Below, one piece after another: positions 12,442-51,724 of a stretch of 64,000 bases of DNA. The notes under the pieces were generated by a model. It had not been told where the DNA came from. It did not search any database and saw only the letters and a list, made by a program, of their open reading frames with translations. The stretch comes from Polyodon spathula (lineage: Eukaryota; Chordata; Actinopteri; Acipenseriformes; Polyodontidae): positions 72,334,413 to 72,398,412 of the forward strand of contig NC_054539.1 in NCBI RefSeq assembly GCF_017654505.1, read 5' to 3'. Numbering within the stretch: the first letter of the stretch is position 1; each line of letters opens with the position of its first letter. A program made the translations under genes and the position numbers.

Positions 12442-13635
12442 ATGTTAAATTCCAACAGTGATGGTTATTTGAACATTACTCCATATTCCAGGGTGCGTCT
12501 AGCACTGGTCGAAGGTTTATCAGAGAACAGTTCGCTACTGGCAGGCGTCTCCATGGAGAACTACACTGTGTCCCCTTACTTGCATGAGAGCTTTGAGGTC
12601 CTCAGCGCACCCTTGCAGGTATTCCTTTCCACCGTGATTATTTTCATCCTGCTGGTGTCTTTTGTGGGAAATGTGGTGGTCTGTTTGATGGTCTACCAGC
12701 GGGCTGCCATGCGTTCCGCCATCAACATTCTCTTAGCTAGCCTGGCCTTTGCAGACATGATGTTGGCTGTGTTGAACATGCCCTTTGCCCTGGTTAGTGT
12801 CATCACCACCCACTGGATCTTTGGGGAGGTTTTCTGCAAGGTGTCCGCTATGTTCTTCTGGCTGTTTGTCATTGAAGGAGTGGCTATCTTGCTTATCATC
12901 AGCATTGACCGATTCCTCATCATCGTTCAGAAACAGGACCGATTGAACCCCTATAAGGCCAAAGTGCTCATCGGTATCTCCTGGGCCTTTTCATTCTGTT
13001 TTTCCTTCCCCCTGGCTGTTGGCAAGCCAGACCTGCAGATCCCCTCCAGGGCCCCCCAGTGTGTGTTTGGCTATACCACAGAGCCAGGCTACCACACCTA
13101 CGTAGTGCTCATAATGCTAGTCTTTTTCTTCATCCCCTTCATGGTGATGCTTTACACCTTCTTGGGCATCCTGAACACAGTGCGCCACAATGCCATTCGA
13201 ATCCACAGCCACCCAGACAGCATCTGCCTGAGTCAAGTTAGCAAGTTGGGCCTCATGAGCTTGCAGAGACCCTTTCAGATGAACATAGACATGAGCTTCA
13301 AGACACGTGCCTTTACAACCATACTCATTCTGTTTACAGTGTTTACAGTGTGCTGGGCACCCTTCACTATCTATAGCCTGCTTTCCACCTTCAACAGTAG
13401 CTTCTACAACAAGGCAAACTTCTTTGAAATCAGCACGTGGCTGCTCTGGTTATGCTACCTCAAGTCTGCCCTCAATCCATTGATCTACTACTGGAGGATC
13501 AAGAAGTTTCGGGACGCCTGCCTAGACTTAATGCCCAAGTACTTTAAGTTCCTACCCCAACTGCCCGGCCACACGAAGAGGCGGATTCGTCCCAGTGCCA
13601 TTTATGTTTGTGGTGAGCACCGAACTGTGGTATAG
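12442..13635 (+). CDS. gpr63: GPR63, orphan class A G protein-coupled receptor
   Basis: Single-exon frame of 397 residues with all seven-helix landmarks: G76-N77 (TM1), D105 (TM2), C132 for the extracellular disulfide, D156-R157-F158 (DRY position) and W181 (TM4). Then C207 in extracellular loop 2, P232 (TM5), CWAP 304-307 (TM6) and NPLIY 345-349 (TM7). Three N-glycosylation sequons (N11, N29, N40) lie in the extracellular N-terminus. The tail reads RRIRPSAIYVCGEHRTVV, which is GPR63 rather than its paralogue GPR45; human GPR63 is slightly longer (419). The start is the first in-frame Met; the N-terminus varies in this family. The receptor is a brain-enriched plasma-membrane orphan, reported to respond to lysophospholipids such as sphingosine-1-phosphate. 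It lies head-away from the FHL5-UFL1 strand, as on human 6q16. Confidence 0.95.
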   Translation: MLNSNSDGYLNITPYSRVRLALVEGLSENSSLLAGVSMENYTVSPYLHESFEVLSAPLQVFLSTVIIFILLVSFVGNVVVCLMVYQRAAMRSAINILLASLAFADMMLAVLNMPFALVSVITTHWIFGEVFCKVSAMFFWLFVIEGVAILLIISIDRFLIIVQKQDRLNPYKAKVLIGISWAFSFCFSFPLAVGKPDLQIPSRAPQCVFGYTTEPGYHTYVVLIMLVFFFIPFMVMLYTFLGILNTVRHNAIRIHSHPDSICLSQVSKLGLMSLQRPFQMNIDMSFKTRAFTTILILFTVFTVCWAPFTIYSLLSTFNSSFYNKANFFEISTWLLWLCYLKSALNPLIYYWRIKKFRDACLDLMPKYFKFLPQLPGHTKRRIRPSAIYVCGEHRTVV

Positions 13636-18878: not shown

Positions 18879-20526
<1,648 letters not shown>

Positions 20527-29031: not shown

Positions 29032-29187
29032 TTACTTCGGGTCGCTGTGTGTTTCTCTGCGTGCACAGTGTGTGTGCGTTAATATTCCACTCAGGCTCCA
29101 AAGAAATGTAGGTTCTGTGAAAGATTTGTGACACACTTGACAGGTCCTTTCTTTTGCTACTTTTACGATTCCTTCTGTAGCTTTAGC
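29032..29187 (-). CDS. TGFBRAP1-like coding exon 11 (last)
   Basis: Acceptor CTTTTCAG. Encodes CQVCHKSFTEPTF and GILTHTHC, the paired Cys/His C-terminal motif, ending in SDPK and TAA at 29032-29034. Confidence 0.92.
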   Translation of the reverse strand, partial: AKATEGIVKVAKERTCQVCHKSFTEPTFLWSLSGILTHTHCARRETHSDPK

Positions 29188-32100
29188 CTGAAAAGGCAGT
29201 AGAATGTAAATGTCAGCAATGTTGTCAGTGAAAGCAATTTATAGTCTAATTTAATGCTTATTCTTTGTTCAGTTTAAACAGATTTTACAGGAATCATTAT
29301 CTTGTGACCTTAATTCCTGGATTGCAGACCAATAGTTAGGACATCTCAAAAGCTCACAAAGAATTACCATTATGCATTTTTCATTTACAACAAGGGCAAT
29401 GTGAAAGGAATGATTTCTGACAAAAATATTATAAATCAAATGTTTTTGAAAGTTGCAAATGCATTTTTACTTACCACATACTACTTGGGAAAATTGCAAA
29501 GGAAAAAAAGGTAAAATAATTAGCTGAACTATTTACACACAGAACTAACTTTACACCATCAAATTAGCTGTTACACATACTCAAATACTTAGCAAATATT
29601 CCATTGCTCAGTAACCATTTACTCAAACCATTAACTGACTCTATGTAATCAGGCAGTGAGTAGAGGATAGTATAAATTTACTCAGCTTGAGAAGTACCCA
29701 ACGTAACTGTACATGCAATCACATTGCAATTAATTACACTAAACTGCCCACAACTTACCAGGAACATGCTGAGCATAACTGCTTGAAAACAGTTCCAGTC
29801 AAAATAATCATGATGCAATACCATTCTCATGCCAAACCTCACTTTCAAATAGAATTCTCTAGTAGAGATCTCTAATATACTGGCACCGATTCTGTCCCCA
29901 CTCCACACCACAACAATAACTCCTCTGGGCTTAACTGTCAGTGATGCACTCCTGTAGCAACTGTTCATATACCAGGGTACTGTCCACTGGGAGAATTACC
30001 TTAGCATTCAGTGGAAAGTCTGGAGACCTGCTTCACATCCTACACTGCAGGGTATCAGACAGGTATTCGGTCTGCCGCAATGATAGTACTTATTTAAAAT
30101 ACTGCGTCTACTGCAGAGTTTAGTTAGGATGAAGGGTAGGAGTGATGACATCAACGATGGGGGCTTCCACAGAAGCAGATTTGTCTTTAGTTCACTTCTT
30201 CTGGAATACAGTCAGCACTCTGATATCATTACCCAGATACACGTCAGTCACATTTTACCACCTTGTATATGAATAAAATTAATCCCCATATGCAGTTACA
30301 CAGCTCATCCTCCAGTTTCACCTGACGAAAATGCTGCCAAACAAAGCAAACTAGACAAGCTACCATACTGTAACGGTTAATTGTTAAACAGTTTTAGATA
30401 CTGTGATGTATTTTATTTTTTATCTGTGATCTTTTCTTGCTTTTGTGCATTTTCATTTGCAAGTGAACTGTGACTTTAGGGTCTTATCGAGCGCTATGTT
30501 CTGCAGTTTTGAATACTGACTTTCATTCTGGAAACAGTTTTTTTTTTTTTTTTTTTTTTAATCTTTTGGTTTTGCTTTTACGTTTTTACGCAGTTCCGTG
30601 CATGGATACCATTTAGATTTCATTTTGCTGTTAGGTCGTTAATGGGAAATTTTACATACTGCTACAATATGTATGGATTTAAAAGTTTGTTCTATATTAC
30701 CGTCCATGTGTCATCTCTTTAGTTTTGGCAAGTGATATTTTCAGAGTCATATCGTTATGAATTAAAATATTACTTCTGTTGAAAACATAGTACTGTACAA
30801 ACAAAACCAACAGTACATCTACGTGGAAGCCTACTTATTTTAAAACACAGTCCTTTCAGCTATGTATTTTTGAAATTGTGTCTTTTGGTGTTCCCTGAAA
30901 AATGGACAAGGGTTGGAACGGACCAAAATGAAATAATCAGTTATGTGTCACATGCACTTAACCCTCACTGAAGTCAAAATTGTATAGGGTTGGATATGTG
31001 AGTGCTGACTGTACAGTGCACAGCCATGCCAGTCCTTATATAGAGCCACCCTATGCACACCCCATAAGTGGTAGACTCATATTCACACTATGTGGTCTCG
31101 GCTACATAACCCCTAAAGAGAACAGTTATCCAGCCATAGTGATTGCATTTTACAAACAATCAGTTATAAGTTCTGGTTACACTGTTTAAACTCACCCTTG
31201 AATACCTGTACCTAAGGTGTTCGGCTTGAGCCAAACTCTTCTCCATGCTCTCCATTCTCCGGTAGTGTATACTGATTCTCATAGACTCAACCAGAAACCT
31301 GGATAGCAGCTGTAGTGACCAGGAATCAGGAAGTATTTGTAGGACACTGACGATGTCAAAGACAGCCACGTTATTGTTCAGCAGGTCCACTGCTGCAGTC
31401 ACTAGTTCATTTGTGTTGCAGGTGGTTGAATCCAGATAGATCTTTAGCAAAGTACAGAACAGCATGCTTCTAAAGGCCTTGTCCTTGCCTTGAGAATTTC
31501 TCTGACAGTACCTCTCTGCTGCTTGAAAATCCTGCTCTTTGTGAACCAAGTTCCACAGAGCTTTGTCATGCTTTCCTTGTTTGCTGTACAGAATTGCTTT
31601 TTCTGTGTGCAATTCTGTATCCAGTACTTTGTCTAAAAGTGAAAAACAGAAAGGGCTTCATTCCAACCATCAATAACGTATTCAATCAATTAAATAAATA
31701 TGAATGCACATTATCTTGCTTTATATATGAATTTACATTTCCAAATGTTTTTTTTTTTTTTCCTATTTGATTATGCTTTAATTAAATTAGGACTTGGTGT
31801 GCAAATGTAACAGGCATCGCTGGCTAGGAGCAAAAATATATAGAAAGATACAATGACAATCAAAATGCAATTGCCTAGCAGCCATCCTGAACTCATTGCA
31901 CCAACCTTGTATAACGGAAACATTGTAAAAGGAAGACTCATGAAGCAGGTCCTGCAATTTAGTCCTTGTTCCAAAGAAAGTTATTTTGTCCCTGTCATTC
32001 TTTTCCAGTAACTTCAGTACATGCTCAAGGTATGACATTGCTAAGAGAGTATGGTATCTCTCCTCCTAAATGACGAAAAAATGACGGGGGTAATCAAGTT

Positions 32101-35100
32101 GTATGCTTGGTTTACCTGATGCTAACAAGGGTGTTCCCATACAGTGCTATCAGTGGATATTATGTGAAAAAGTGACAGGATGGTTTGTACTAAACCTTGT
32201 TCAAAGCTCTTCTAACCGTCAATTTGAATTTATACTTTTTATAAATGCATTATGTACTTCTTATGTACTTGATAAATATACTACAATCAAAACGTTATTT
32301 CAAAGAGATTTTATGTAATGGAAAAGAAACGTAAAAGTGGAGGAGATACGGTATGACTGTGTCGGGATAGTTGCCACAGAGACTTGGCATCCCTGTGTTG
32401 CTGCTATTGATTTGATGATATGTAAACACAACAGCTACTCTTAGGCACATATTGATATGCAATTAAAACATATTGATATGCAATTAAAAACATTAAGGTT
32501 CACCTCACACTAAGAACAGTGGGGGAAAAAAAATGCAATAGAAATGATCTCAGGACTGTGACATTTCAAACCATTTCAAACAAATTATCTTGTGATCTTG
32601 ACATAATACATTTTTATAATTTTTTTCTCTAGTGTCCACTGTACAGGAGAAACACTGGGTAAAACAAACAGCTCTTCTCATGAGTCAGTTTTAAAATCCA
32701 TGGGTTCAGTGATCAGCAAAAAATCAACAGAATAGAGACATTATTTTGTGAACTAGGCTCTAAGAATACTACTATTCCACACAGGAAAGATTCTTACCTT
32801 TGAATTACGGGCAGTAACCAAATACTCAAGGTATAGCATTAAGGCCAGCTGGTATTGCTTTAAAAAACCAATGACTTCTTCATAACTGAAGGTTTCCTGT
32901 TCTCTCTGAGGACGCTTTGTGAAGATCTGTACTCCAACCTTTACAGAGAATGGAAAATAACTTTGGAAACAGTTGTTTCATTTTGTTCCCATAACCACGA
33001 CCCCTTTGCACTCAGCATCCTTATAGTTATGTAACTAAAAGTAACAAAAACTAAACGTTTTGGTCTTTTAAAGGATCTCATTCAATATAAACTAAACACT
33101 TACAAAAAGTAAACCTCAGCTTGGGCACAGATTCCTGTGTTTGATTCAGTTTTGCTGGTTTAGTTGGACAGCGTGGAAATGCACGCAATTTAATCAGCAG
33201 CAACAATAGTTCTGGTATTAGTTCATACTGAGTTGCTAAGACAGTCATAAGTTTATCATAGAACCAGTAGAAAATCCCAAAGCTCTTCTTTTCTCTCTGT
33301 TGGCACAACATACCAATTGTGGAGAAAATCTTGAGATTCAGAAGCCCCTATTGCTTGTACATTATGATGGTGGATTAAATCCATTCCCAGAATCACTTTA
33401 TTTACATTACACTAACCCCTGGTTTCACAGGCCCAGATTAGCACTAGTCATGAACCCTCTTAAGTAACATTATGTAGTCCAAGATTAATTTTGCTAATCA
33501 GGGTCTGTGAAGCTGAAGTGCCTGCAGACTGCAATGAGACAGTAATCACACACTAAGGCTTGTTTAGTTACACACAACATCCTTGTTTGCCAATTATTTT
33601 CATTGTTTTCTCCCCAATTTAGTAACGTCCAATTATTTTGGTAGGCTCAGCCCTCCGCTACCACCCCTGCGCTGACTCGGGAGGGGTAAAGACGAACACA
33701 GATGAACTGTCCTCTAAAGCATGTGCCGCCAGCCGCCCGCTTCTTTACACACTGCAGACTCACCATGCAGCCACCCAAAGCTACAGTGTTGGAGGACAAC
33801 CCTGGGCAGCTTACAGGCAAGCCTGCAGGTGCCCGGCCAGACCACAGGGGTCGTTGGTGCGTAGTGAGCTGAGGACACCCTAGCCAACCTAGCACTCCCT
33901 CCCCCCGGGTGGCGTTCGGCTAATTGAGCACTGCGTCCTGGGAGTTCCCGTCCTCGGTTGACAAAGGAATAGCCCTGACTCGAACCGACAACGTCCAGAC
34001 TATCAGGCGCATCCTGCACTCCACGAGGCGCACCTTTACTGGAAGCACCACTCAGGAGCCCCTCACAGCATCCTTGTTAAATACAAACATATCAAACAAT
34101 GGCAGTTTATTTCACTTTATCCATACTGCATGCATGTGACTGTATTTACAATGGCATTTTCTCTTTTAGTGATGTTAGCAAACTAAAAAAAAGAAAAAAC
34201 TTTTAAAACCTATTACAGCAAAAAGCTGAAAATAAAATAATCCCATATGATATAATGACAAAACAAGTTGCCAGCCACAGTAATGCAAATATAGTTTTTA
34301 TAAATGTATCTATCTTTTCATGCATCATGAGCCATACCCTACATCTTCAACAACATCATATCATAGTGATAAGTTTAGGTCTCCAATATTCTGTAAACAT
34401 TTAAAAAAAATAAAAAATACTATCCCAAAACTAGTCAAAAGCTAATGGATATATATTTGGTGCAGGAAAAACAGAACTTTAGAATACATACATAATAATA
34501 TTCAAATGTACTTTAAATTAATAAATACTCCACAAATGAAAAGAAAAATGAAATCCAAATTAAAAAAAAAAAAACAGTACTATAACAGCTTCCAAGTGAC
34601 TAAGAGATTAAAACAGAAGACAGCGGGTATGAGGTGACAATATACTACATATATGAGCAGTAATCTACAATTCAAACAGCCCTAAAATGATCACTTCGTT
34701 TTCAGAAATAGGTTTATCGAAAGTTCAATGAGGTTTGTCTCTACTGAACCAAAGGAATGTGTTCAGGGAATACTGTGCTGTGATCAGTTTGTACCGATGT
34801 TGTTAAATCTCCAGAACGTGTCCACTAGAGGGCACCAGCTACATGCTGAAGAGGAGTGGATTTTATTATTGAATAGGTTGTAGAACATGCTGGCATTTGA
34901 AACGTTTTATTTTTCGTTTCATTTGACATTTCCGTACAGGATTGACAGATATGCAGCATCTTATTTTCAGGGATTCTATTACAGTAGATGGTGTGGGAAT
35001 TTTAGCAATAATAATGGCCTGTCTAGTTTAGATTTTGTTTTGTATCAGGCATATTTCTAAAGAACTTACCTCCTGGTTCTTCTGCAAAGCCCAATCAGCA

Positions 35101-35278
35101 TATTTCCAGACAAGCTCTCTTTTCTGTTGAAAGCTAAGGAACTCCACTATATGCCTGTGGATATCTTTCTCTGTAGATTCATGAAGATAACCATCAGCAA
35201 TTTGAATCCATGTCTGCAATAACATAAAAACCAAGGCCATTATACAGTCTAATTGTATAGTCATACAGGAATTACTTG

Positions 35279-35368
<90 letters not shown>

Positions 35369-38300
35369 CTTGTCAAGGGACCCTGTCTAGTCAACAGTCT
35401 GACGCCTTGGACATCAAAATTGGAGTGAAATACATGTACATTGCAGACTGCGGACCGTAGTTAAAACCTCACTTTAAATACATGTTATAGCCAGTGTACA
35501 ACATGCAAAAGTCAAAATGGAAACAGTGTACAACATGCAAAAGTCAAAATGGAAACACCAAACATTAACAGCTACTGTACAACGAAAAGTCTGGTTAGGT
35601 TATTTATTCATCTATTCATCATATTTTATTGTAATTCAAAGCGTATTATATACTTTTCCTGTAAAACACCCACTCTGGAAATACTGGAAACTATGCCATG
35701 TTCGTCCTCAACTTTGCATGAGAAGATAACTGACAGGCAGGTACAGAGGATGTCTGGACAAAATGTTTGGATGGCTGATATTGTGGGGGGAAATCTAGAG
35801 AGACTGATAGCTGTATTTGCTGTCCAGTTGGTAAGCTGTGTTTCAGCTGAGGGAATTCATTGTCAGCTGTTCTAATTCTATCTCATTATTTGATGTAGCA
35901 AAATAATACTTTTTTTTTTCATAGATGGCTACCTACATACAAAAATGCATCCGATTTTCAGGCACTGTTCATTACCTGAATAGCATTGTAATCCTGGTCT
36001 TGGCTGTGATAAAGGAAGCCCAAAGCAAAGTATCTGGAAAATAAGACATGGTTTATATAAGTATCCCTCAATCACAGTAAGAGATAACATGGTCATTCAA
36101 ATCTTTTTTTTGTATAGCTGTCTATGGTGTCTGCAACCGTTGTGAGTGGGTGTGGGTTCTGGGGTGCTGCAATGCAGTTATTATAATGGTTTTGTAAATC
36201 CCACTTTCTTTTATCTTGCTTTGAGCTTGCCAGAACAACAAAGTGACTTTCATTCCAACAAAGTGACAGTGTAGCCTTTCCTATCTGCCAGTCCAGCCTA
36301 CTCTTTTCCTATAGAAAGGCAGAGCTGGGGGACTGGCAGAGCTGAAATATTGTGATAGAGTGAGGAAAGCTGTTCACTTAGTTTCAGATACATTTTGAGT
36401 GTTTTGATTGAGTGTTTGAAGTTATGAAGTGTTTAAAGATGTTGTATCTTGCTGAGTAACTTTCTTTTCTTTTATTTATTTTTTTTTAACCAGGACTAGA
36501 TTTGCTCACTATCACGAATACCCGATGACAGTTCATAAAGAAACGTTTCACAGTACTCCACGAACCTCTATTTACACACGTATGGTAACATCTAAACTAC
36601 AATAAAGAAATCCTACTTTAAATTGTTTTACGCATACATGTTATTATTCTGACACCCAAATGCCATTTCCTAACAAATTTTGGCGCAAATTAGATTAGTC
36701 CCAAAACCAAAGAATGGACACAGATTACACAGATACAAAAGATTTGCAATGTTAGCCAGATTAATGCTTCCAATTTGTGCATTCTTTTGTTTGAGCCTGC
36801 TATTTAATTATTAATTTTTTTAAGTGGAGCATTGCTAGTCAGTTCTTTGAAGGCTTACAGCTTGTTTAATACATAACATATTGTTACCTCTTGTGTTTCT
36901 CTAGACAGTGAACACACTCATTCAGCTGGCATGCATTGTTAGTGGACAGCAAGTGGATTAATTCTTCGCCTCCACTCTCTGCGTACAGCTTCAGCAGAGC
37001 ATTGTCAACCTGTTCCTTGTAGAGCTGCGCCTGCTCAGTCAGACGGATTGCACTCAAGAAATCCACAAGAAATTGTTTGTATCGCTGAAGCCTTTCAGGA
37101 TCTCCCTTTTTCATCTGATTGAGATCCTTAATGTTGCACACTGAGGGACGAGGCTGTTTAAAGGTTGTACTGAGAGGCGGGGAATCAGGATACAAGGCAA
37201 TGACTTCTCTGGGGTCAAGATGGCCTTTGCTGTAAAATACAATCACAAGCGTGTAATGCTATTTAATATTCCTGTAAAGTGCTTAAGAAAACAATATAGA
37301 CATAGATACTGAAGTGTTTGTTTATCCACAGAAGAGGCAGCATACTAGCAGGAACAGCACTGTGCAAGCTCCAGCATTGGGCAGATGTAATCTATCCAGG
37401 TAGCAGTAATCTAAAAAGGACTGACAGAGGATTACAGTGCAATTTCCATGGAGTCATTATTCCTGTAGGATGCCGATACAATACACAAGCTCAGCTTTGC
37501 AAAGCTGGTCTAAAGCGTTTTTATAGCCTCAGGAGGAATAGTGTCCTAGAGGTCTGATTTACACTTTTGTAAAAATAAAAGCTTACCTGGTGATGGAGAT
37601 ACAAAAAGTCTTTAAATGATTTGAAAACCTCACCTACAGCATCCTTGTACTGTGCAGCCAACACAAGTTCTACGATAATGGAATGATTGTACTGCATGTA
37701 CTGTATATGAGAACGTACAGTCCTATTTAGGTTTAAAAACACAATAACTTAATAAGCAATAATTAAATGGAAGAATGGCAGTGTAATGTGTGCTTTTCTG
37801 TCATAATTAAAGGTATCAATGCTATTTTAACTCCTTCATCACTTCCAAAGGGAAGGCTGACCCGTTTGACTTGGGACTGAGCCAATTTGGATGTTTCAAA
37901 CAGACAGTAAAACGCTTTTTTTTTTTTTAAATAATTTTCAAATCATTCTTACATGAAAAGTTCCTTGGCTTCAGAAAAGCATTCCTGGAAGAACTTTATA
38001 AATCCGGCTTGTTGAAGAACATACTGATACACTGCCTGCAAAATGAATATATACAGTATATGTATGTTATATTTAGACAAAAGTTATGAATGTGTTATAG
38101 AAATCATCAAATGAATACTGGTACATCAGGGATAACACAACTGACCACTCAGTGGAGATTGTAAAAAAATGCTTATTGAGGACTAATATTTTCTAAATAC
38201 CAACTTTTAACATTTTACAATTTCCATGAAGCACAAGCCGATATAGCAAAAGGTACACTGAGCATTTAGCCCCCGCTACACAGTACTGAACATGCCCAAA

Positions 38301-40641
38301 CAGCGACCCACATTTAAATATCCTGTGACAGCTCTGGTTAACCTATTCTCCACGGCTGCTGTCACCCATGTGATGTGACAAGCCTCCTGGACAGTACCTT
38401 GTATTTATTTTTTGGAATGACAGCCCGTGCTCCTTTGACAAGATCCAGAGCTTCAGAAGCCTGTTCTCTGCTCAGTAAGGTTTCGATTTGCTCTTCTATT
38501 TGAACTGGTATCAGGCTGTAGATTTCTCTGCTGGTCAATACAAAAACTCTTTCTATTGGAAAAAGAAATGAAAAGATAATTTATCTATCTCCCAAGACCA
38601 TTGAAACAGATGAATAAGTACAAATATATAAATAATTTTACCTCGTTGATGCCAGATTTACTGTATACAACTGTAGGGGATGTGATATTAGAATAATTTT
38701 TTTCTGTTTTAAACCGTTTGTTTTCTCATTCTATAAAAATAAAGTAACCTTTCTAAAAAATATGTCACCTATATAGTGTTGCATATTAAATATTTGCATA
38801 TTATACACACAAAAAGGATCAGGTGTATTATGATTGAAGCTAAGGTACCAAGAGAAGTGGACTGTTATCAGTCCAACGTAAGCCTTCAAGTGTGTTATTG
38901 AGCCTACAAAATGGTATATTATTATTGTTTTGGAACAGTGATTTTATTGGACAAGGCTTTGGAATGTCAGCAGCCAATCACAATGCAGGGACTTTCCAAG
39001 CCAATTTATAACCTGAAGAATAATACAATCAAAGAACCCAAATATCTTCAAAAGAAAATCAGAGCCATTGTTAATTGGAGGTAAGAAATGGTATTTTGAA
39101 CTATGGTTAGCATTCATTTAACAATCTCGGAATTTGGTCTCACCAATGTAACAAATGAGCTTTGCAAGGATGTCTTCATCAAGTAAGACATTGTTGTTGC
39201 CGGTAAATACAACTCAGGTGTAATGGTTCAAACTGACAATCTGGAGTTCATATTTACCTTGTGATGACACTAGAATACATCCTTTCTGAAAAGGGATGAG
39301 CTGTTTTTGTTGCTGGTCCAGAATACTATAAACTCTTAAAGCTTCACTGTCCAGTGTTACAACATATGGGAAATATACAGCAGCCATGTATATCTGCTCT
39401 GGCCATTGTAGAGGTGGACGCTGAGAAATGCCACAGTTTGTAACAAACATTCCTGCACAAGTAGAAGAAAAGAGATGTTATGAATGGTGTGGAGAGGCTG
39501 ATGTCACAGTCTGTTTTAAAGTTTCTTTAACCTGAGTTAAGAAGCTGTTCTTGATTTCTAATCACCAGCCATAGACAAATAACATAGTGTCTTCTGTTGG
39601 TAATCAAGAGATGTATCTTTTTACTGTCCTCTTAAAAAAGACAGTATATAAAATAAACTGAACATGCAGTTTGAAGCAATGTACTTTTCAAGTGTTATTC
39701 TGTAGGAAGGATATTGTAAGAATGGGCTTTTGAGTTAGAATGAAAAAAAAATAGAGAATGTTTAACCACACAGTAATTAGGTTCAGTGTGATTTCGACAA
39801 AAGCAAAAACATTATCTGTTAAGCTGTTATCAGTGAGAGTTTTACTATGATGTTGCAGGGTTCAAAGACCCCACAACATCTAATTGGCAATCAGTAAAAA
39901 ATAAAATAAAATAAAAAACAGTGATACTGCTGGTCTGTTGAACCTTTACTTACCCAAAGATCCTGGTCCATTCAAAAGAAATTCTCCTCTCCCAACCACT
40001 TTAATTATGGGGTTTTGTTTCACTTTATCATAAGGAAAAAGCTCTTGGGTAGTTCCATTCGTGTGCTTATGAAGGATGTACCGTTCTGACATTGCCACGC
40101 AGAGACAGCTCCTATCCACAGCCAGTGCCAAGGGCTCCTCTGGAAATGGCACTTCCTTCACACATTCCCATTTGTCAGTTGAAACAGCATAGATATAAAT
40201 GGCTTTCTTCTTTGAGGCCACAACAAACAGCTCAATGAACACTGGGTCTGTAAACGCAGCCATCTCATTGACTTCAAACAGTGCAACATTGCGGATTTTC
40301 TGCATGGTTTGGATGGGTTCTAGACTAAACATGTTCAGCACACTGACGGCACTGTCAGAGAGCACCAGCAGACGGGTCAGTATCGGTGAGGCCTTTAGCT
40401 GCCTGATCGGCTTCTTTGTCCCCAGGTGTCTCTTCTTAACCTCTTTTTGTTGTGGGCATGTTTTCTCATTCCCCGGTTGGCTCAAGTCAGGCAAAACAAA
40501 ATGGAGCACCAAACAATCTTTTGTTCCAACATACAGGTTTTTCCCACAGGATTCCAAGCAGCAAAAATTTAAATCATCCTTTTCATTTCCAGCAGGCTGG
40601 TTTTCAATTGTGAGCGTGAGGCTAAACACATCCAGGCTCAT
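29032..40641 (-). CDS. TGFBRAP1-like (Vps3-type CORVET subunit), 11 coding exons
   Basis: Coding exons, all with GT/AG borders: 40641-39954, 39452-39258, 38552-38398, 38035-37953, 37229-36888, 36033-35976, 35213-35070, 32938-32798, 32065-31906, 31632-31196, 29187-29032. They join in matching phase to 2559 bases (852 residues plus TAA); human TGFBRAP1 has 860. Residues about 20-300 form the CNH (citron) domain (YVGTKDCLVLHF, SILDQQQKQ). The middle and C-terminal helical part carries Vps39-type regions (ALLKLYAESGGE, ELVWKYADWALQK, AAVDLLNNN, VLQILPDSWS). A C-terminal zinc-type motif uses C817, C820, H839/H841 and C842. The family tethers early endosomes as a Rab5-effector CORVET subunit and was first found binding TGF-beta receptors and SMAD4. 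By eye it is well diverged from human TGFBRAP1. Position between GPR63 and FHL5 suggests it is the 6q16-block paralogue, not the 2q12 TGFBRAP1. Confidence 0.93.
31196..31632 (-). CDS. TGFBRAP1-like coding exon 10
   Basis: Acceptor TTCACTTTTAG, donor AAGG|GTGAGT. Encodes the second Vps39-type region: AILYSKQGKHDKALWNLVH, AAVDLLNNN, VLQILPDSWSLQLLSRFL. Confidence 0.93.
31906..32065 (-). CDS. TGFBRAP1-like coding exon 9
   Basis: Acceptor CGTCATTTAG, donor CAAG|GTTGGT (weaker than the others). Encodes EERYHTLLAMSYLEHVL ... KLQDLLHESSFYNVSVIQ. Confidence 0.9.
32447..32488. repeat. 21-bp tandem duplication
   Basis: The unit ACATATTGATATGCAATTAAA occurs twice, in an intron of the TGFBRAP1-like gene. 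It carries a TATGCAAT octamer-like core. Confidence 0.9.
32798..32938 (-). CDS. TGFBRAP1-like coding exon 8
   Basis: Acceptor CTCTGTAAAG, donor AAAG|GTAAGA. Encodes VGVQIFTKRP ... LMLYLEYLV. The intron before it holds a SINE. Confidence 0.92.
33578..34078 (-). mobile_element. Full-length tRNA-derived SINE, copy 2, with target duplication
   Basis: CATCCTTGTT at 33578-33587 and 34069-34078 is a perfect 10-bp target duplication around a 481-bp body (33588-34068). In minus orientation the head holds an A-box-like GAGTGGTGCTTCC and the polymerase III B box GGTTCGAGTC (complement of 33977-33986). A long GC-rich body follows, then an A/T-rich tail (AAATTGGGGAGAAAAC). It lies in the intron between coding exons 7 and 8 of the TGFBRAP1-like gene, in that gene's sense orientation. 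The open frames of 71-101 codons here are SINE by-products. Confidence 0.93.
35070..35213 (-). CDS. TGFBRAP1-like coding exon 7
   Basis: Acceptor TTATTGCAG, donor GAG|GTAAGT. Encodes TWIQIADGYLHEST ... ELVWKYADWALQKNQE. Confidence 0.93.
35281..35360. repeat. (TA)n microsatellite
   Basis: Uninterrupted TA array beginning 68 bases upstream (in gene sense) of coding exon 7. Confidence 0.97.
35492..35555. repeat. 32-bp tandem duplication
   Basis: Two identical units starting CAGTGTACAACATGC. Confidence 0.95.
35976..36033 (-). CDS. TGFBRAP1-like coding exon 6
   Basis: 58-base micro-exon: acceptor TATTTTCCAG, donor CAG|GTAATG. Encodes YFALGFLYHSQDQDYNAIQ. Confidence 0.9.
36888..37229 (-). CDS. 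TGFBRAP1-like coding exon 5
   Basis: Acceptor TATTTTACAG, donor AGAG|GTAACA. Encodes GHLDPREVIALYPD through NALLKLYAE to CLEKHKR, the first Vps39-type helical region. Confidence 0.93.
37953..38035 (-). CDS. TGFBRAP1-like coding exon 4
   Basis: Acceptor ATTTTGCAG, donor CAT|GTAAGA. Encodes VLQQAGFIKFFQECFSEAKEL. Too short for a usual ORF search; found by homology and phase. Confidence 0.9.
38398..38552 (-). CDS. TGFBRAP1-like coding exon 3
   Basis: Acceptor TTCCAATAG, donor CAAG|GTACTG. Encodes IYSLIPVQIEEQIETLL and ALDLVKGARAVIP, as in the linker after the CNH domain. Confidence 0.93.
39258..39452 (-). CDS. TGFBRAP1-like coding exon 2
   Basis: Acceptor CTTGTGCAG, donor CAAG|GTAAAT. Residues 230-294, end of the CNH domain with ISQRPPLQWPEQ and LDQQQKQ, both strongly family-like. 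Confidence 0.93.
39954..40641 (-). CDS. TGFBRAP1-like coding exon 1
   Basis: Starts at ATG 40641 (MSLDVFSLTL) and encodes residues 1-229, most of the CNH domain. Donor GGG|GTAAGT. The 192-codon frame on the opposite strand is its shadow. Confidence 0.93.
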
Positions 40642-42944: not shown

Positions 42945-43096
42945 CTATTTCTCTCGTCCGCAATCTGTACACAGGGTATCATCCCGGTGCGTGAGGAATC
43001 CTCGTCCAACCAGAGACACGGAGCACTTCATACAGGTGAAGCACTCAGTGTGCCACTGCCGCTCTTCAAATGAGATGTACTTCACCCCACCCAGGC
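42945..43096 (-). CDS. fhl5: FHL5 coding exon 5 (LIM4, stop)
   Basis: Acceptor GTTTTTGCAG. Encodes LGGVKYISFEERQWHTEC, SVSLVGRGFLTHRDD and CTDCGREK, then TAG at 42947-42945. Too short for the usual ORF threshold; found by homology and phase. Confidence 0.92.
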
Positions 43097-46000
43097 CTGC
43101 AAAAACAGGAAGGGATTAACAGGAGCGTTACAAGCTGAACCACTGAAACCAGTGATACTTTCTCTATCGTGTGCGTTGCACTCTCCAGCGACAGGTTTTT
43201 TCCTAAACCGAGAGAAGTGTGAAATTAAATTATTTATTTAATTCTTTATTTTAAGGCCAATAACTCATAATGCACTTTTAATAATACATGTAATAGAAGT
43301 TAAAAAAAATATATATTTTTATTTGAGGTATTTACTATTACTGACACAATACATTAATGAATAAGGCTGACAGAGAACGATTAAGCTTTCTAACATTTCT
43401 TTCCAATTTATACATACTGCATTCTAGGTTACCTCTGCAAATGCTGCTGGCTTACACTCCTCTGCTTACTAATTAATATCTTGGTTTTCTTGGAATAGAT
43501 GCTCAATTTGCTATTCCAAATGTGGGGAAATCATTTTAATGAGCAATAGAGATCTGTACACTGTTAACATATTGGCAGTCACCAGTTTTTTGGGGTAAAC
43601 TCTTGGATCTCTGTAACTATACAAAAAAAAATGTTTAAAAAAAAAAAAAACAGTCGTACTTGTGATGGGCTTGGTGCAGCCCACACACTTCTTTGCATAG
43701 AGGCTGCTGAAGCAATCCAGGCAGTAAGAAAACTCATCTCTGGAGGTGAAGCGCTGCCCTGCCAGCTGCTTCTTACACCCAATGCACAGGAAGCACTCCC
43801 TGTGCCAGGGCTTGTCATGGTAAGTCACCCCACCAGCTGTTATGGCCTAAAAATAAAAAAGGACTTCAGAATGGGACAAAATAGGATTTGCTGATACCTT
43901 ACCTTAACAATTATCAATTCATGAGGTGGGAGCCCAGGCTAAGAGAATAGCTTGTTAGATCGTAGATTGGGTTGGTAAAGGAAAGACTTCTAGAGAAGTA
44001 AATAAGGGTTGTCATGAGGAGAGGCATGGCCTACAAGACCGTGCACAGCATCTCTGAGGATGGAACAGGTAGCAGATGCAAACCTGAATCCTTCGAAGAT
44101 GGAGTAGGTAGCAGATGCAAACCTGGCTATTGGAGAGTCACTCGCTGTGGGAGCGGAGAGCCTTCCCAGGGAGTTTCAAAACAGGTGGAAAGTAGAAGGT
44201 TAGTTAGGACATTAAGCACTAAACACATAGAAGGCTAAGGCCTAAGCAGAAATAGAAAGAGAGAGAACTGAGCCTCTGATTTTAGGTAAGTAATAGTGCA
44301 TGAGTTGCGAAAAGATAGGTGTGGCCAGGGATCCCTGCTGACTCATATGATGAGAGCCCCCCTTATCCGAAGGCAGAGGTGGCGTGTGTAGCCTGACTCC
44401 AAAAGAAGGACCCCCGGCTCCATAGAATTTCCTCAAAACCATGTGACAAACAAGAAAAAAGACCACGTGCCAACGCATAGGAAAAACATGCAAGACAACG
44501 ATAAAAGGGGGTTAGATAGATGTATGGATTATGTGTATGTATAACTATACCTATATCTCTCACTCAGTGGGGAGGAAACCTCTGGTGGTACCGGTGAAGA
44601 ACATAAGAACATAAGAACATAAGAACATAAGAAAGTTTACAAACGAGAGGAGGCCATTCGGCCCATCTTGCTCGTTTGGTTGTTAGTAGCTTATTGATCC
44701 CAAAATCTCATCAAGCAGCTTCTTGAAGGATCCCAGGGTGTCAGCTTCAACAACATTACTGGGGAGTTGATTCCAGACCCTCACAATTCTCTGTGTAAAA
44801 AAGTGTCTCCTATTTTCTGTTCTGAATGCCCCTTTTTCTAAACTCCATTTGTGACCCCTGGTCCTTGTTTCTTTTTTCAGGCTGAAAAAGTCCCTTGCGT
44901 CCACACTGTCAATACCTTTTAGAATTTTGAATGCTTGAATTAGGTCGCCACGTAGTCTTCTTTGTTCAAGACTGAACAGATTCAATTCTTTTAGCCTGTC
45001 TGCATATGACATGCCTTTTAAGCCCGGAATAATTCTGGTCGCTCTTCTTTGCACTCTTTCTAGAGCAGCAATATCTTTTTTATAGCGAGGTGACCAGAAC
45101 TGAACACAATATTCAAGATGAGGTCTTACTAGTGCATTGTACAGTTTTAACATTACTTCCCTTGATTTAAATTCAACACTTTTCACAATGTATCCGAGTA
45201 TCTTGTTAGCCTTTTTTATAGCTTCCCCACATTGCCTAGATGAAGACATTTCTGAGTCAACAAAAACTCCTAGGTCTTTTTCATAGATTCCTTCTCCAAT
45301 TTCAATATCTCCCATATGATATTTATAATGTACATTTTTATTTCCTGCGTGCAGTACCTTACACTTTTCTCTATTAAATGTCATTTGCCATGTGTCTGCC
45401 CAGTTCTGAATCTTGTCTAGATCATTTTGAATGACCTTTGCTGCTGCAACAGTGTTTGCCACTCCTCCTACTTTTGTGTCGTCTGCAAATTTAACAAGTT
45501 TGCTTACTATACCAGAATCTAAATCATTAATGTAGATTAGGAATAGCAGAGGACCTAATACTGATCCCTGTGGTACACCGCTGGTTACCACACTCCATTC
45601 TGAGGTTTTTCCTCTAATCAGTACTTTCTGTTTTCTACATGTTAACCACTCCCTAATCCATGTACATGTGTTTCCTTGAATCCCAACTGCGTTCAGTTTG
45701 AGAATTAATCTTTTGTGCGGGACTTTGTCAAAAGCTTTCTGGAAATCTAAATAAACCATGTCATATGCTTTGCAATTATCCATTATCGATGTTGCATCCT
45801 CAAAAAAATCAAGCAAGTTAGTTAGGCACGATCTCCCTTTCCTAAAACCATGTTGACTGTCTCCCAGTACCCTGTTACCATATAGGTAATTTTCCATTTT
45901 GGATCTTATTATAGTTTCCATAAGTTTGCATATAATAGAAGTCAGGCTTACTGGTCTGTAGTTACCTGGTTCAGTTTTGTTTCCCTTTTTGTGGATCGGT

Positions 46001-49000
46001 ATTACGTTTGCAATTTTCCAGTCTGTCGGTACAACCCCTGTGTCAAGAGACTGCTGCATGATCTTGGTTAGCGGTTTGTAAATTACTTCTTTCATTTCTT
46101 TGAGTACTACTGGGAGGATCTCATCCGGCCCAGGGGATTTGTTTATTTTAAGAGCTCCTAGTCCCTTTAACACTTCTGCCTCAGTTATGCTAAAGTTATT
46201 TAAAACTGGATAGGAACTGGATGACATGTGGGGCATGTTGTCAGTATCTTCCTTTGTAAAAACTTGTGAAAAGTAATCATTTAACATATTTGCTATTTTT
46301 TTTTCTTCCTCTATGATTTTGCCATTTGTATCTCTTAAACATTTAATCTCCTCTTTGAATGTTCTCTTGCTGTTGTAATATTGGAAAAACATTTTGGAAT
46401 TGGTTTTAGCTTCTTTAGCAATGTTCATTTCTATTTCTCTCTTGGCCTTTCTAACTTCCTTTTTGACTTGCATTTGCAGTTCTGTGTACTCTTTCTGTGT
46501 ACTTTCTTTTTGGTCCTTTTTTAATGCTCTGTAAAGTGCCTTTTTTCGCTGAATATTTTTTTTAATTGATCTATTAAACCATTTTGGCAATTTAGTTTTA
46601 CATTTAGATTTGTCTACTTTAGGGATATAATTGTTTTGCGCCTCTAGTACTACGTTTTTGAAGAACAACCATCCTTCTTCTGTGGGTGTTTTCTCTATTT
46701 TACTCCAATCTACTTCTGTTAGTCTCTGTTTCATGCCTTCATAGTTTGCTTTTCTAAAATTGTAAACCTTAGCTTTAGTCTTTACTTTTGAGGATTTAAA
46801 AAACACTTCAAATGAGACCATGTTGTGGTCTGAGTTTGCCAGTGGTTCTCTGACCTCTGTTTTAGTTATTCTATCTTCGTTATTTGATGTCAGAAATAGA
46901 AGAGCGAATGTACAAGTCAACTGCTGAAGAGGACCAGCGCCTTAATGAGATGCTGGTTGATTCTCGCCTTGGCTGCCGATATTGGCTGGTTGGCTGGTTG
47001 ATTCTCGCCTTGGCTGCCGATATTGACTGAATGGGAAGAATCCACGAACAGCGGGTCTGATGGGAGGAGGGGTTACCTACTGGAAGCTGGGGCTATGCTT
47101 TGGATTATTCCTCGCAGTATTGGATGGACTGCCGAAATAGACAGCAAGATGGGGGAAGAGACTGCCAATGAGCGATAGTGATATTGGCTCCCACTGATGT
47201 ATGATTTAGTTGTGCCTGGATCCAGATGGAGAGTCCCTTGCGTGAGCGATGAAAGCTAGGATCCAGCCTTGATTGAATGGAATAGGAAGAATCCGATTTT
47301 GAGCACAGAAGGCTGAATAGTAGTTTCAGCCTGTGGTGTAACATGACCTTGTGGATGGAGCGAGAGCTGAAGCCATGTAGTTTCTGATGGATTGAAGGAG
47401 CTTGGATATAGTTGAGTTTAGTTGAACACCAGTTGCTGGAATAATGGGACCTGCAATGGAACTGGAGCTGCTGCTGAGATCAGCTGGCGAAATTTGGTGA
47501 TTGTTGATGAGGTAGGTTATGAAAAACTGGTCTGGGAGATGTTCGAGAGCTTCAATCAGAGCTGGATTATTGGGACAGAAATTGTAAGCAGTTTTTTAGA
47601 ATATCATTTCTTGGGGATGGCTGGGCAAACTGACTGAGAGTGAGTGGGCATTGCTACAGTGGTTGCATATATGGAGATTCCTGCAAAGTTTGTATAAGCA
47701 GACAGAGGAATTGAAATTGGAACCAGCAAATCTGAGGTTATGACCATATTTATCTGTGTTGCTGAAAGAAGAAGGTGGAGCTGGTGCATGGCCTGCATGT
47801 GGAGCTGAAAATGGAGCTGCAGGAATGATTGCTGAAGCACGCCTGCGAGAAGGAGGGAACATGGGTGTAGCAGATATGAAGGTACAGTAAATATTGAACA
47901 GCACCATATGTTCACTTCCGGCAGGGATGTTGAAATTGTTATCATGCAGAGTTTGGCAATCCTTGTAAAATAGCTGCTCTGGAGGCTGAGCCTGCTGGTG
48001 CGGGCATTTTGATCATCGTAGTGCCTAGGCAGAAGGTCTGCTTGCTGGGTAGAGGTCGGCATAAGAAGTAGCAGGTACCGGGTTTCCATCGGTAGGTACC
48101 AGATGATGATTCACAGGAGCAGAAAGTTAGAAGGGCCCTAGCTTCCACCCCCTAAACGTCACTAAACATTACATCATTCATTTAGTTTTTAACACAATAT
48201 GACACTAATATCAAAGCCTTGACTTTTTACAATCTGTTCTGTGGCAACAATCAGCACTGGCTCTAGGTTTCAAGGTGTTTTCTTTAGACTGCTCTGAGAC
48301 ATCAAATGCCCATGTAAGTCTGCCTGTCCTCATTTGCAATGTGGAGCAAAATCCTTAAGGGACTGCATTTATGAGTGACAGAGCACAGCTCCCTGCAGAT
48401 AAGGGATTAGTGCTTGTGTTCAGTCTTCCAGGTGCTGTGCTAATGTAATCTATATGCCAATGTAATCTATATTACTTTATTAAAAATATTTTTAAAACAA
48501 ATATATAAAAAGATGTGTACTTTTTTACAGGAGTTGCACTGGTAAGCAAACTGCTTCTCAAAACATGGCACACAAAAGTAACCATTATCTTTCGGAATAA
48601 AAGACTTGGTTCCTATTGGCTGCTGACAGCGATGACATAAGAAGCAGGTTTCGTGCCAAGAATTTCCCTTGTACTCCATTTTGCGGGAACCTAAAAAAAG
48701 GGTGGAAAATACATATATATAGATTTAGAATAGGTGGGCTACAAGGTTACTGTTTGAACAAGGTTTAGGTGACATTATAAATCACAAAACCTTGAATAAG
48801 TCAACTGAACCCTGAGATGCATTACTAATAAAACAACTGTTAAACTGTTTAGGTTTAAAAAAAAAAAAAAACATAACAGCATGCTGTTTTAAAGTCATTA
48901 GGCTTTATGTTTTCAGAAGCTTGATAGGAGAGGCAGTTTTTGTTGTCATGGTAATAAATTCTAAACTGGCTTTAGTAAAAGAATTTCGAAACAGGACTCA

Positions 49001-49891
49001 AATTACCACAGATGTTTAAACTACAGAAGTTTGCAACAATTGTTAAAATGACATCCAGGTTTCAAATTATTTTGATGTGCATACTGTATGAAGAGGGAGA
49101 AAAGAAAGAAAACAAAACCTTGCAGTGATATAAACATTTAAAATGAATATGAGAAACAAAGATAAACTACAGAAATTCATCAAATCATTGTTCTCTAAAT
49201 AATAAAAATAATATAAATAATAATAAGAGTAATGTACCTGTGCTGGCCCTGCTGTCACAAAGTGAATAAACTAAACTAAACTGAAATGATATCCTCTCAT
49301 TTGCATTGCTTACCTGGCATGATGGTTTTCTTGCAGGTAAAGCATTTGGAGGAGTACTCGTGAGAATAGCAATCTGTGCAGAGAAGGCGCTCATCCTTGG
49401 CAGCAAAAAGCTTTTCCACTAAAGCCTTGCTGCATCGAGCACACTTGAAGCACTGTTCGTGCCAGTGGCGGTCCTTGTATGACAGATCCTTTAGGACAAC
49501 AAAGGGCAAAGGTTTGAAGTGTACTGTACTCGAAGAATGAGCACAATTGTTGATAAAGGATGTTAGCAGTATTTGAAAAAATGCATTAACGGGTATATAA
49601 GGACCTTTTTATTTTATTGTGTTACATTTTCCCATGTGTTGCTACATTTTTAGCACTTTTTTTAAACATTTAAATTGCATTTCCAGCCTCAAGACGGCAT
49701 CCCATGTACCCACATGGACCTCTCAGAACTACATTTCCCATCATCCTACTCACTGGTAAATCCCTCACTGGGGATTAAAACAATACAACAATACACACAC
49801 CTTATGTAAACAGTTGTAGTAACACAAGGGAACATGCAACACAATAAAATAAAATAGGTCCTTAAGTACCCTTTAAGATGGAAATGAAAAT

Positions 49892-49930
<39 letters not shown>

Positions 49931-51724
49931 TATATATATATATATTATATATATATATATTATAGATATATAGACATACACACACACACACACACATATT
50001 GCCACATTATTAGGACCAGGAACTAATATCAGGTTGGGCTACAATTTGCCCTGACAACAGCCTTGGCATTATGTGGCATAGACTCCACAAGAAAGTGCCT
50101 TGAGCGTAGGCGCTGGGTCTGTATCATTTTTGGTGATGCCCAGCCCCTATACTATCACCCCCCAGTCCGATAAAACAAAAATAAATAAAATAAAATAAAT
50201 AAATAATCACTACCGTAAGCAATTATTGCGTCGTACATTATTGTGAACTATCTATTTTATTATATATTATTGCTTTCGCATGATATACTGAGTTGGAGTA
50301 CATTGTCCTATAAAATGGTATATTAGAGGATAAACGACAAAGCTCTGCTGAATACGGTAACAAGCAAGTGCTGATGGACCCATAACCCACAAGAGCAAAT
50401 ACTTCCTAAAATTTAATTTAAAAAAATTATTTTATTTTTGCGATGTTCTAATTGTTCCCAAGTAAACTGACAAAGTTCTGTGTGGCTGCTCTGGCCTCCC
50501 AAACACTGCATTAAACTTTAAATGATTAAACCAGCAATCGAATAATTGGGTACACAAGTAAATATCGACGATTGTACCGCACACACTCATTTTCGCTCCA
50601 TTTCTCTCCCCGTGACATTATTATTTTAATATCATTGCTGTTATTGAGTAAAACCTTGTTTACAACAATTGAATGAAAGTGGTAATTACACCATGGTAGC
50701 GTCAGGATTAAAAACAAAACATTCGCTACAAGCCTAACAAGTTTAACATGCTACAGAGCTGTTACTAAAACATGTATTTAGTAATCTATATAAACTGGTG
50801 TCTAGTTTATATAGATTACATTCCAAAGTACTGTAATATATAAACTAGACACGTTTATATATATAAAAAAAAAAAAAAATAATAATAAAAAAAAAACGTC
50901 TTTGTATTTAGTGACAGCTGCAGCATTACACATTGCATTTTGTTAATACTGTACCACCTAACCTTCACTATCTGCGGAGCACACAATGCGGAAATCCCCG
51001 CCTAAAACATCATCATCATCATCATATTAACACTAATAATAATATTAATTACAAATACATTGGTTTATTCACCACAACATGCACACCTGCTATAGGTCAA
51101 GCTGATTGTTTCTCCAAAATTGCGTTTAACGCCGGTGATCGATTTTAACGTTATTGAATATTGTTAAATATTCATTATATAACAGTTCATTATGAAACTC
51201 CAAGGAAGAGCAAACTATACACAGTCAAAAAAAAAAAAAATATCGGCGCATGCAATTTTTTTGTGGGCACGGTACTTTTTTGTAGGTAGCTCAGATTGTC
51301 AGAACAACCAGCCACTTCTTGTTTGTTTGTTTGTTTCCATCGAGCACACAGAGTGGCTTTCTTACAAAGCATTTTCAAAACTGATTCACTGGTAGGATGG
51401 GACCAGCAAATCAGATGCTACTTAACACCAGCAGGAGAAGAACAGCACGCCCACTGCTTGTTGTTTTTTTTGTATTAAAGAATTGCAATGATTGTATTTT
51501 TGGTGTCAAAGTCCTTGCTGATTGTCAATATGATGGTAAATAATAATGAACCTTCAACAGCCTACCTTGCAGTTGCACCCAATAAGCTTCCCACAGTCTT
51601 CACAGCAGTTGGCAAACAGGTTTTCATAGCACTTGGTGCAGTACTGGGTTTCCTCTCTTAAGATATATTGTTTGCCCAGTAGAGAGATCTTGCAATAGTG
51701 ACAGTCAAAACGCTCAGCACTCAT
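42945..51724 (-). CDS. fhl5: FHL5, four-and-a-half LIM domain protein, 5 coding exons
   Basis: Coding exons 51724-51566, 49488-49314, 48690-48521, 43846-43660 and 43096-42945 join in phase to 843 bases (280 residues plus TAG); the family is 279-284 long. Order: an N-terminal half LIM (FDCHYC ... YCTKC), then four full LIM domains, each with paired Cx2C and Wx-H-x2-C zinc ligands (RHWHEQCFKC, SWHETCFLC, PWHRECFLC, QWHTECFTC). FHL proteins are actin- and nucleus-associated scaffolds; FHL5 (ACT) co-activates CREM/CREB in mammalian testis. FHL5 is preferred over FHL2 because of LVEKLFAAKDERLLCTDC, CVPCFEKQFAYQCNSCKK and KCSVSLVGRGFLT, and because GPR63 and UFL1 are its neighbours. FHL2 resembles it in places (GTKSFIPKDN), so a tree would settle this. 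Confidence 0.88.
43660..43846 (-). CDS. fhl5: FHL5 coding exon 4 (LIM3)
   Basis: Acceptor TTATTTTTAG, donor ATCACAA|GTACGA, also weak. Encodes AITAGGVTYHDKPWHREC ... LYAKKCVGCTKPIT. Confidence 0.92.
44056..44133. repeat. 39-bp tandem duplication
   Basis: Two diverged units sharing GGTAGCAGATGCAAACCTG, in the FHL5 intron beside the LINE. Confidence 0.85.
44600..46923 (-). mobile_element. CR1-clade LINE, 5'-truncated, long ORF intact
   Basis: A minus-strand frame (46920-44683, 745 codons without a stop) starts in the last part of the endonuclease domain (LANSDHNMVSFEV) and contains the whole reverse transcriptase: NKSPGPDEI, NYRPVSLTSI, QHGFRKGRS, VYLDFQKAFDKVPH (D392), GVPQGSVLGPLLF and the FADD catalytic box at 478-481. 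It ends LLDEILGSISY. The short 3' UTR ends in tandem TTATGTTC units (44600-44634 on +), the kind of octamer tail used by CR1 elements. The inferred Met is arbitrary because the 5' end is cut. It lies in the 4.7-kb FHL5 intron between coding exons 3 and 4, in the gene's orientation. The lack of stops suggests a young insertion. Confidence 0.93.
46924..48170. other. G/A-rich intronic stretch beside the LINE
   Basis: Purine-rich sequence with a tandem duplication at 46952-47025 (41-bp period, unit starting GCTGGTTGATTCTCG). The composition resembles 43950-44590 on the other side of the LINE, so the LINE may have inserted into an older repeat. The 161- and 103-codon minus frames look incidental. 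Confidence 0.4.
48521..48690 (-). CDS. fhl5: FHL5 coding exon 3 (LIM2)
   Basis: Acceptor TTTTTTTAG, donor AAAAAA|GTACAC, a poor match to the donor consensus. Encodes RKMEYKGNSWHETC ... CVPCFEKQFAYQC. Confidence 0.9.
49314..49488 (-). CDS. fhl5: FHL5 coding exon 2 (LIM1)
   Basis: Acceptor TTGTCCTAAAG, donor CCAG|GTAAGC. Encodes DLSYKDRHWHEQC ... YSSKCFTCKKTIMP. Confidence 0.93.
49895..49996. repeat. (TA)n-(CA)n compound microsatellite
   Basis: Interrupted TA array followed by ACATACACACACA repeats. Confidence 0.95.
49998..50110. repeat. Fish DNA-transposon fragment
   Basis: 'aggttgggctacaatttgcc', 'acaacagcc' and 'gtggcatagactccacaag' resemble a common fish repeat (GGTTGGGCC...TTTGCC, CAGAACAGCC, TGGCATGGACTCCACAAG). 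The family is not resolved; truncated copy. Confidence 0.4.
50785..50853. repeat. Nested inverted repeats (multi-stem)
   Basis: TAATCTATATAAAC (50786) pairs with GTTTATATAGATTA (50805). GTGTCTAGTTTATATAGATTACA pairs, with two bases unmatched, with TGTAATATATAAACTAGACAC ending near 50852. The two stems share a middle arm and are mutually exclusive. Confidence 0.8.

Follow-up and report, generated by a model that had tools for sequence, protein, structure and literature searches.

A probable TGFBRAP1 ohnologue in the GPR63–FHL5 block of the paddlefish, apparently lost in tetrapods and most likely an alternative VPS3-type subunit of CORVET

The window analysed here is a stretch of 64,000 nucleotides of the 1.54-Gb genome of the paddlefish Polyodon spathula (C6:72334413–72398412). 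It carries on its minus strand a TGFBRAP1-type gene (29032..40641), whose model we rebuilt from the DNA, one splice junction being fixed by direct reading of the sequence. The gene is intact from ATG to stop, encodes 852 residues in 11 coding exons and has GT-AG boundaries in 10/10 introns; the presence of ten introns rules out a processed copy. According to the gene model, exon 1 (39954..40641) comprises the start codon and most of the N-terminal CNH domain, and it is followed by exons 2 (39258..39452), 3 (38398..38552), 4 (37953..38035), 5 (36888..37229, containing the start of the Vps39_1 domain), 6 (35976..36033), 7 (35070..35213), 8 (32798..32938), 9 (31906..32065), 10 (31196..31632) and 11 (29032..29187), the last of which holds a CxxC...HxxC motif and the stop codon. 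The rebuilt model and the Pfam matches agree with the preliminary description of this DNA, in which an intact 852-codon, 11-exon gene of the TGFBRAP1 family lay between GPR63 and FHL5.

The Pfam matches of the window protein comprise the N-terminal CNH β-propeller (53.4 bits for a cut-off of 26), Vps39_1 (70 bits for a cut-off of 22) and a clathrin-type region (41.2 bits for a cut-off of 29.6). The score for zf-Vps39_C, 22 bits, lies under the cut-off of 24.7; the CxxC...HxxC motif is nevertheless present, as it is in 69 of the 72 members of the clade to which the window protein belongs (the paralogues) and in 168 of the 177 members of the canonical TGFBRAP1 group (the orthologues). In a structure model, the sterlet orthologue of the window protein is predicted to be strand-rich at its N-terminus, and the best structural match of this model is the N-terminal domain of fungal Vps39. 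A sequence search of the Protein Data Bank with the window protein as single query gave one weak match. Rfam, run on the whole window, returned nothing at gathering scores, and ARAGORN in its bacterial setting found no tRNA there.

The TGFBRAP1-type gene lies tail-to-tail with a GPR63-type single-exon receptor gene on the plus strand (12553..13632), recognized by its 7tm_1 match and its genome copies; a sequence search of the Protein Data Bank with this receptor matched distant receptors only. On the other side lies an FHL5-type gene on the minus strand (42960..51724), supported by an FHL LIM match and by exons located in tblastn and genome searches, with an incomplete model in which five LIM-coding exons were found. 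UFL1 exons matching PF09743 follow at C6:72412695–72419873 on the minus strand, 14–21 kb past the right end of the window. The names POU3F1–4, FHL1–3, FHL5, GPR45 and GPR63 are those that we assume for the paddlefish genes, the analysis itself giving families and identities; names are backed by data for FHL (PDB chains) and UFL1 (Pfam family). We take the human order to be GPR45–TGFBRAP1–FHL2 in 2q12 and GPR63–FHL5–UFL1 in 6q16.

A genome search with the whole protein retrieved the window gene, a canonical TGFBRAP1 gene on each of C9 and C15, and a further copy at C5:5243665–5253237. Both canonical genes sit beside GPR45, each on a GPR45-bearing chromosome, and they correspond to the full-length public proteins P0212 (C9) and P0210 (C15), of 862 residues each. 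These two proteins are 94.5% identical, and the window protein is 44% identical to P0210. The paddlefish thus has three intact TGFBRAP1-type genes, one more than the two Vps3-like subunits previously proposed for this animal, and a broken fourth on C5 between the copies of FHL5 and GPR63. In this C5 copy, exons 3, 5, 6, 7, 8 and 10 can be aligned to the window gene, exons 3 and 8 partially; exons 4, 9 and 11 gave no alignment on the fetched C5 stretch, and exons 1 and 2 would fall outside that stretch, the whole-protein genome search also finding nothing similar to them on C5. Three of the aligned exons (5, 7 and 10) are altered in length. Stops in the frame of the window gene number two in exon 5, one in exon 6 and two in exon 8, counted inside exons only since intron overhang gives stops in the intact window exons too. 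Over the six aligned exons, the C5 copy and the window gene are 87–93% identical (ungapped DNA); for the canonical pair, C9 and C15 are 95.7% identical over 1374 bases of exons 1, 2, 3 and 5. In view of the in-exon stops, the length changes and the similarity to the window gene, the C5 copy is a pseudogene, the sister of the window gene from the sturgeon–paddlefish duplication, while both copies of the orthologue have been kept.

The gene order on C5, UFL1(+), FHL5(+), broken TGFBRAP1-type gene (+), GPR63(−), is the mirror image of that on C6, and UFL1 exons were found in the genome on C6 and C5. Full copies of the receptor gene are 97% (C5), 62% (C9) and 61% (C15) identical to the window receptor, a broken partial copy sits in a duplicated stretch of C15, and the remaining receptors scored in the same genome search reach at most 35% identity. 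The preliminary description had claimed the order and orientation of both human blocks and had proposed to look for a separate copy near GPR45 and FHL2. The tail-to-tail arrangement of receptor and TGFBRAP1-type gene is indeed found in both the GPR63 block and the GPR45 block, and separate copies stand beside GPR45 on C9 and C15, but the FHL2-type genes of these two chromosomes lie 12–14 Mb from TGFBRAP1 and are not adjacent, in contrast to the human order given above.

At a larger scale, the genome search located FHL genes on C6 and C5 (FHL5-type), on C15 and C9 (58–73% identical, exon by exon), on C32, and on C7 with C20. The seven best Pou matches (133–137 bits, single open frames of 377–436 codons), which we take to be POU3-type, sit on C7 and C20, C9 and C15, C5 and C6, and C32. 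Each of four chromosome sets thus has a single POU3-type gene together with a single FHL-type gene, and 2/4 of these sets retain TGFBRAP1-type genes, a pattern given here as plain counts. The POU3-type gene is at most 170 kb from TGFBRAP1 on C9 and C15; it is about 16 Mb (C6) and about 65 Mb (C5) from the GPR63–FHL5 block, so that the POU3 link is there chromosome-wide only. This chromosome-scale pattern of POU3-type and FHL-type genes fits two rounds of duplication.

The protein tree comprised 35 rows, the window protein and 34 proteins picked from 248 database proteins. The window protein falls in a separate clade of 12 rows (support 100/100) containing the window, sterlet and gar proteins and nine teleost proteins, and not within the 2q12-type orthologue clade, the outcome that the preliminary description had named as contrary to its reading. 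The canonical proteins form a ray-finned clade (99/100; 13 rows, including reedfish, bowfin, gar and both paddlefish genes), a lobe-finned clade (96/95; seven rows, including coelacanth) and a shark clade (100/99; three rows). AU tests rejected three groupings of the paralogue: with the canonical ray-fins once reedfish is left out (p 0.011), with the Neopterygii among them (p 0.005) and with the Acipenseriformes among them (p 0.009). On the protein sequences, the duplication predates the ray-finned crown, a duplication inside the crown being rejected (p 0.005–0.011). Grouping with lobe-fins gave p 0.243, and paralogue with sharks is one side of a weak branch (66/27); in a reduced set, where the paralogue was represented by its two slow acipenseriform rows only, the shark position had p 0.18. 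As the shark, lobe-fin and ray-fin placements are not separable, we do not base a split older than the jawed vertebrates on the tree alone: it gives a limit only, before the ray-finned crown, and the earlier date is supplied by the chromosomes. Together, the separate clade and the chromosome blocks support the earlier proposal of an ohnologue from the early vertebrate genome duplications. These duplications would have produced the gene along with its neighbours GPR63/GPR45, FHL5/FHL2 and POU3F2-type/POU3F3-type.

Of the 248 database proteins and the window protein, 72 belong to the paralogue clade and 177 to the canonical group. The 72 comprise 70 proteins listed under the name of a ray-finned fish, one (P0081) listed without a name, and the window gene. 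Among the matches listed (120 of 235 and 120 of 230 matches, a word-filtered set), the paralogue clade contains no protein named as coming from a tetrapod, lungfish, coelacanth, reedfish or shark, and the same listings also miss canonical coelacanth, reedfish, bird and paddlefish proteins known to be in the database. Since the matches listed include no members outside sturgeons, gars and teleosts, an early duplication implies that the gene was lost several times independently, unless members escaped the searches. To judge from these matches, the paralogue was apparently lost in tetrapods, humans included, whereas many ray-finned fishes, from sturgeons to teleosts, kept both copies.

The window gene is a real, ancient and maintained duplicate. 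In a comparison of 13 species, picked because both proteins are listed for them, the paralogue diverges more than the orthologue in 78/78 species pairs, with a median ratio of 2.7 (range 1.2–3.9); between paddlefish and sterlet, the difference is 7.2% for the paralogue against 5.7% for the orthologue. The mean difference of the paralogue exceeds that of the orthologue by a factor of 2.5 in the propeller, 2.8 in residues 311–560, 1.4 in residues 561–800 and 2.5 in the C-terminal stretch. Conservation of at least 90% within each clade is found at 156 sites with a residue common to both clades and at 22 sites where the residue differs between them. The latter lie all within residues 1–560, 15 in the propeller and seven in residues 311–560, which suggests that the partners may differ.

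TGFBRAP1, also named Trap1 and Vps39-2, is the mammalian VPS3-type subunit of the CORVET endosome tether. The window protein has the same CNH, Vps39_1 and clathrin-type solenoid and the same C-terminal CxxC...HxxC motif, and the Pfam domains of the paddlefish orthologues P0210 and P0212 are as in the window protein, whose zinc finger score is weaker. It differs from TGFBRAP1 by its chromosomal block and by the 22 differently fixed sites, and chimpanzee TGFBRAP1 is 46% identical to the window protein against 69% to the paddlefish orthologue. VPS39, a subunit of HOPS, has the same architecture as well; the VPS39-type loci of the paddlefish are probably the other two PF10366 matches, on C12 and C17, neither of which was matched by the window protein at E 0.01 in the genome search.

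According to a study of the human proteins (PMC11066007), TGFBRAP1 and VPS39 share their binding region on VPS11, and an excess of TGFBRAP1 leads to less assembled HOPS. A second paper (PMC4935465) describes Vps3/Tgfbrap1 as the Rab5-binding subunit of CORVET and Drosophila as having no clear Vps3/Tgfbrap1 homologue but a four-subunit complex instead. As Drosophila manages without this subunit, it would be unsurprising if tetrapods had lost one copy out of two. We consider it highly probable that the window gene is a TGFBRAP1 ohnologue of the early vertebrate duplications, apparently lost in tetrapods, and its product is most likely an alternative VPS3-type subunit for the same place in CORVET. 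The CNH propeller of the paralogue would face the Rab5 membrane, whereas its solenoid and C-terminal zinc motif would dock on VPS11. The paralogue would compete for the shared core with both TGFBRAP1 and VPS39. A second form of CORVET, evolving faster than the first, would result, and the amount of the paralogue would influence how the core is divided between the CORVET forms and HOPS. The gene, its clade, its chromosomal block, the domains, the predicted fold of the sterlet orthologue and the long retention are shown by the data; docking, CORVET membership, division of labour and the loss in tetrapods are what we infer. More tentatively, and with somewhat less than even confidence, we propose that ray-fins have two VPS3-type CORVETs, one with TGFBRAP1 and one with the paralogue, whose altered propeller would confer a preference for another membrane or Rab, or a role restricted to certain tissues; the second form would be the one that tetrapods dropped.

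Alternatively, the paralogue may have left CORVET for another complex or for a role as a receptor-associated adaptor, which we regard as unlikely, if the most serious of the competing explanations. The faster evolution of the paralogue in all 78 species pairs (median 2.7 times) and the confinement of the 22 differently fixed sites to residues 1–560 would fit such a departure, but the paralogue retains the same domains and zinc motif, the model of the sterlet orthologue has the same fold class, and 156 aligned sites that are at least 90% conserved carry the same residue in both clades.

A quite improbable origin is a later segmental event that took place on the ray-finned stem once lobe-fins had branched off, and that placed a second TGFBRAP1 beside GPR63 by chance. 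The AU test does not reject a grouping of the paralogue with all canonical ray-fins (p 0.355), the best tree of the reduced set has this grouping (76/76, unstarred), and no members outside sturgeons, gars and teleosts are found among the matches listed. However, the copy sits in the GPR63–FHL5 block, the counterpart of the chromosomes bearing GPR45, FHL2-type and POU3-type genes, and a later copy is unlikely to have landed there in the same tail-to-tail order with the receptor that the other block shows. That the window gene is a slowly decaying relic without function, as the broken sister on C5 might suggest, is very improbable: its open frame and splice sites are intact, it is 93% identical to the sterlet protein, and the clade has 70 named ray-finned rows. 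Finally, although the sturgeon–paddlefish genome duplication is plainly visible (C9 and C15 proteins 94.5% identical, GPR63 pair 97% identical), a recent origin of the window gene from it has next to no likelihood, and a duplication within sturgeons and paddlefish is refuted by the 44% identity to the C15 protein and by the rejected grouping with canonical acipenseriform rows (p 0.009), gar and teleost members existing besides and the true partner of the window gene from that event being the broken C5 copy.

The paddlefish is losing the gene again after its own genome duplication, one copy being intact and its partner broken in place, whereas the orthologue is kept in both copies. Loss of the paralogue versus retention of the orthologue thus allows one to test, in a case that has occurred repeatedly, which of two duplicates of a complex subunit can be dispensed with. 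The loss of ohnologues in the human line is of a known kind, and databases already contain the gene, though under names that mislead. The window gene itself presumably belongs, by its record, to the P0001 cluster. A search of the open literature, with subscription journals, Ensembl and ohnologue databases outside its reach, found no description of the gene as a fish duplicate. In 9/9 species for which both NCBI product names occur among the matches listed (sterlet, spotted gar, Diretmus, Polymixia, Chanos, Hoplias, Denticeps, Alosa and Sardina), it is the paralogue that has the product name 'transforming growth factor-beta receptor-associated protein 1', the orthologue being labelled 'homolog'. 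Zebrafish and other fishes serve as models of human trafficking disease; because the paralogue bears the name of the human gene, knockouts or expression data may be assigned to the wrong gene. Five proteins (P0006, P0070, P0093, P0236 and P0239) are filed as si:ch211-266g18.9 and all fall in the paralogue clade, this teleost database name being a label of the same gene for part of the clade. The neighbouring gene of that clone, si:ch211-266g18.10, is named in one paper.

At the canonical TGFBRAP1/GPR45 locus of paddlefish chromosome C15, a segment of about 14 kb containing TGFBRAP1 exons 7–11 and part of GPR45 is present twice (G000:C15:7238178-7274117, loci L010-L014), the two copies lying about 21 kb apart and being 98.6 and 98.8% identical in the two longest aligned pieces. 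GPR45 is broken in the first copy. This repeat may correspond to a haplotype left unmerged in the assembly or else to a young tandem duplication.

The other two matches to PF10366 (Vps39_1) in the genome are located on G000:C12 (L001) and C17 (L002); these loci are probably a VPS39 gene pair stemming from the sturgeon–paddlefish duplication. In the sterlet, the paralogue found in the window is represented by two versions, the protein records P0001 and P0002, which differ at a few residues, P0002 lacking exons 5 and 11; this discrepancy may reflect an allele, the assembly version or a mis-annotation.

Within the window, two open pieces located between GPR63 and the TGFBRAP1-type gene (19293-20201, forward strand), the second of which matches DDE_3, look like a Tc1/mariner-type transposase. 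Finally, the FHL5-type gene has, in the interval separating two of its exons, a LINE-type element whose open frame is long: it runs to 752 codons (44686-46941, reverse strand) and includes a reverse-transcriptase domain that scores 131 bits against RVT_1.
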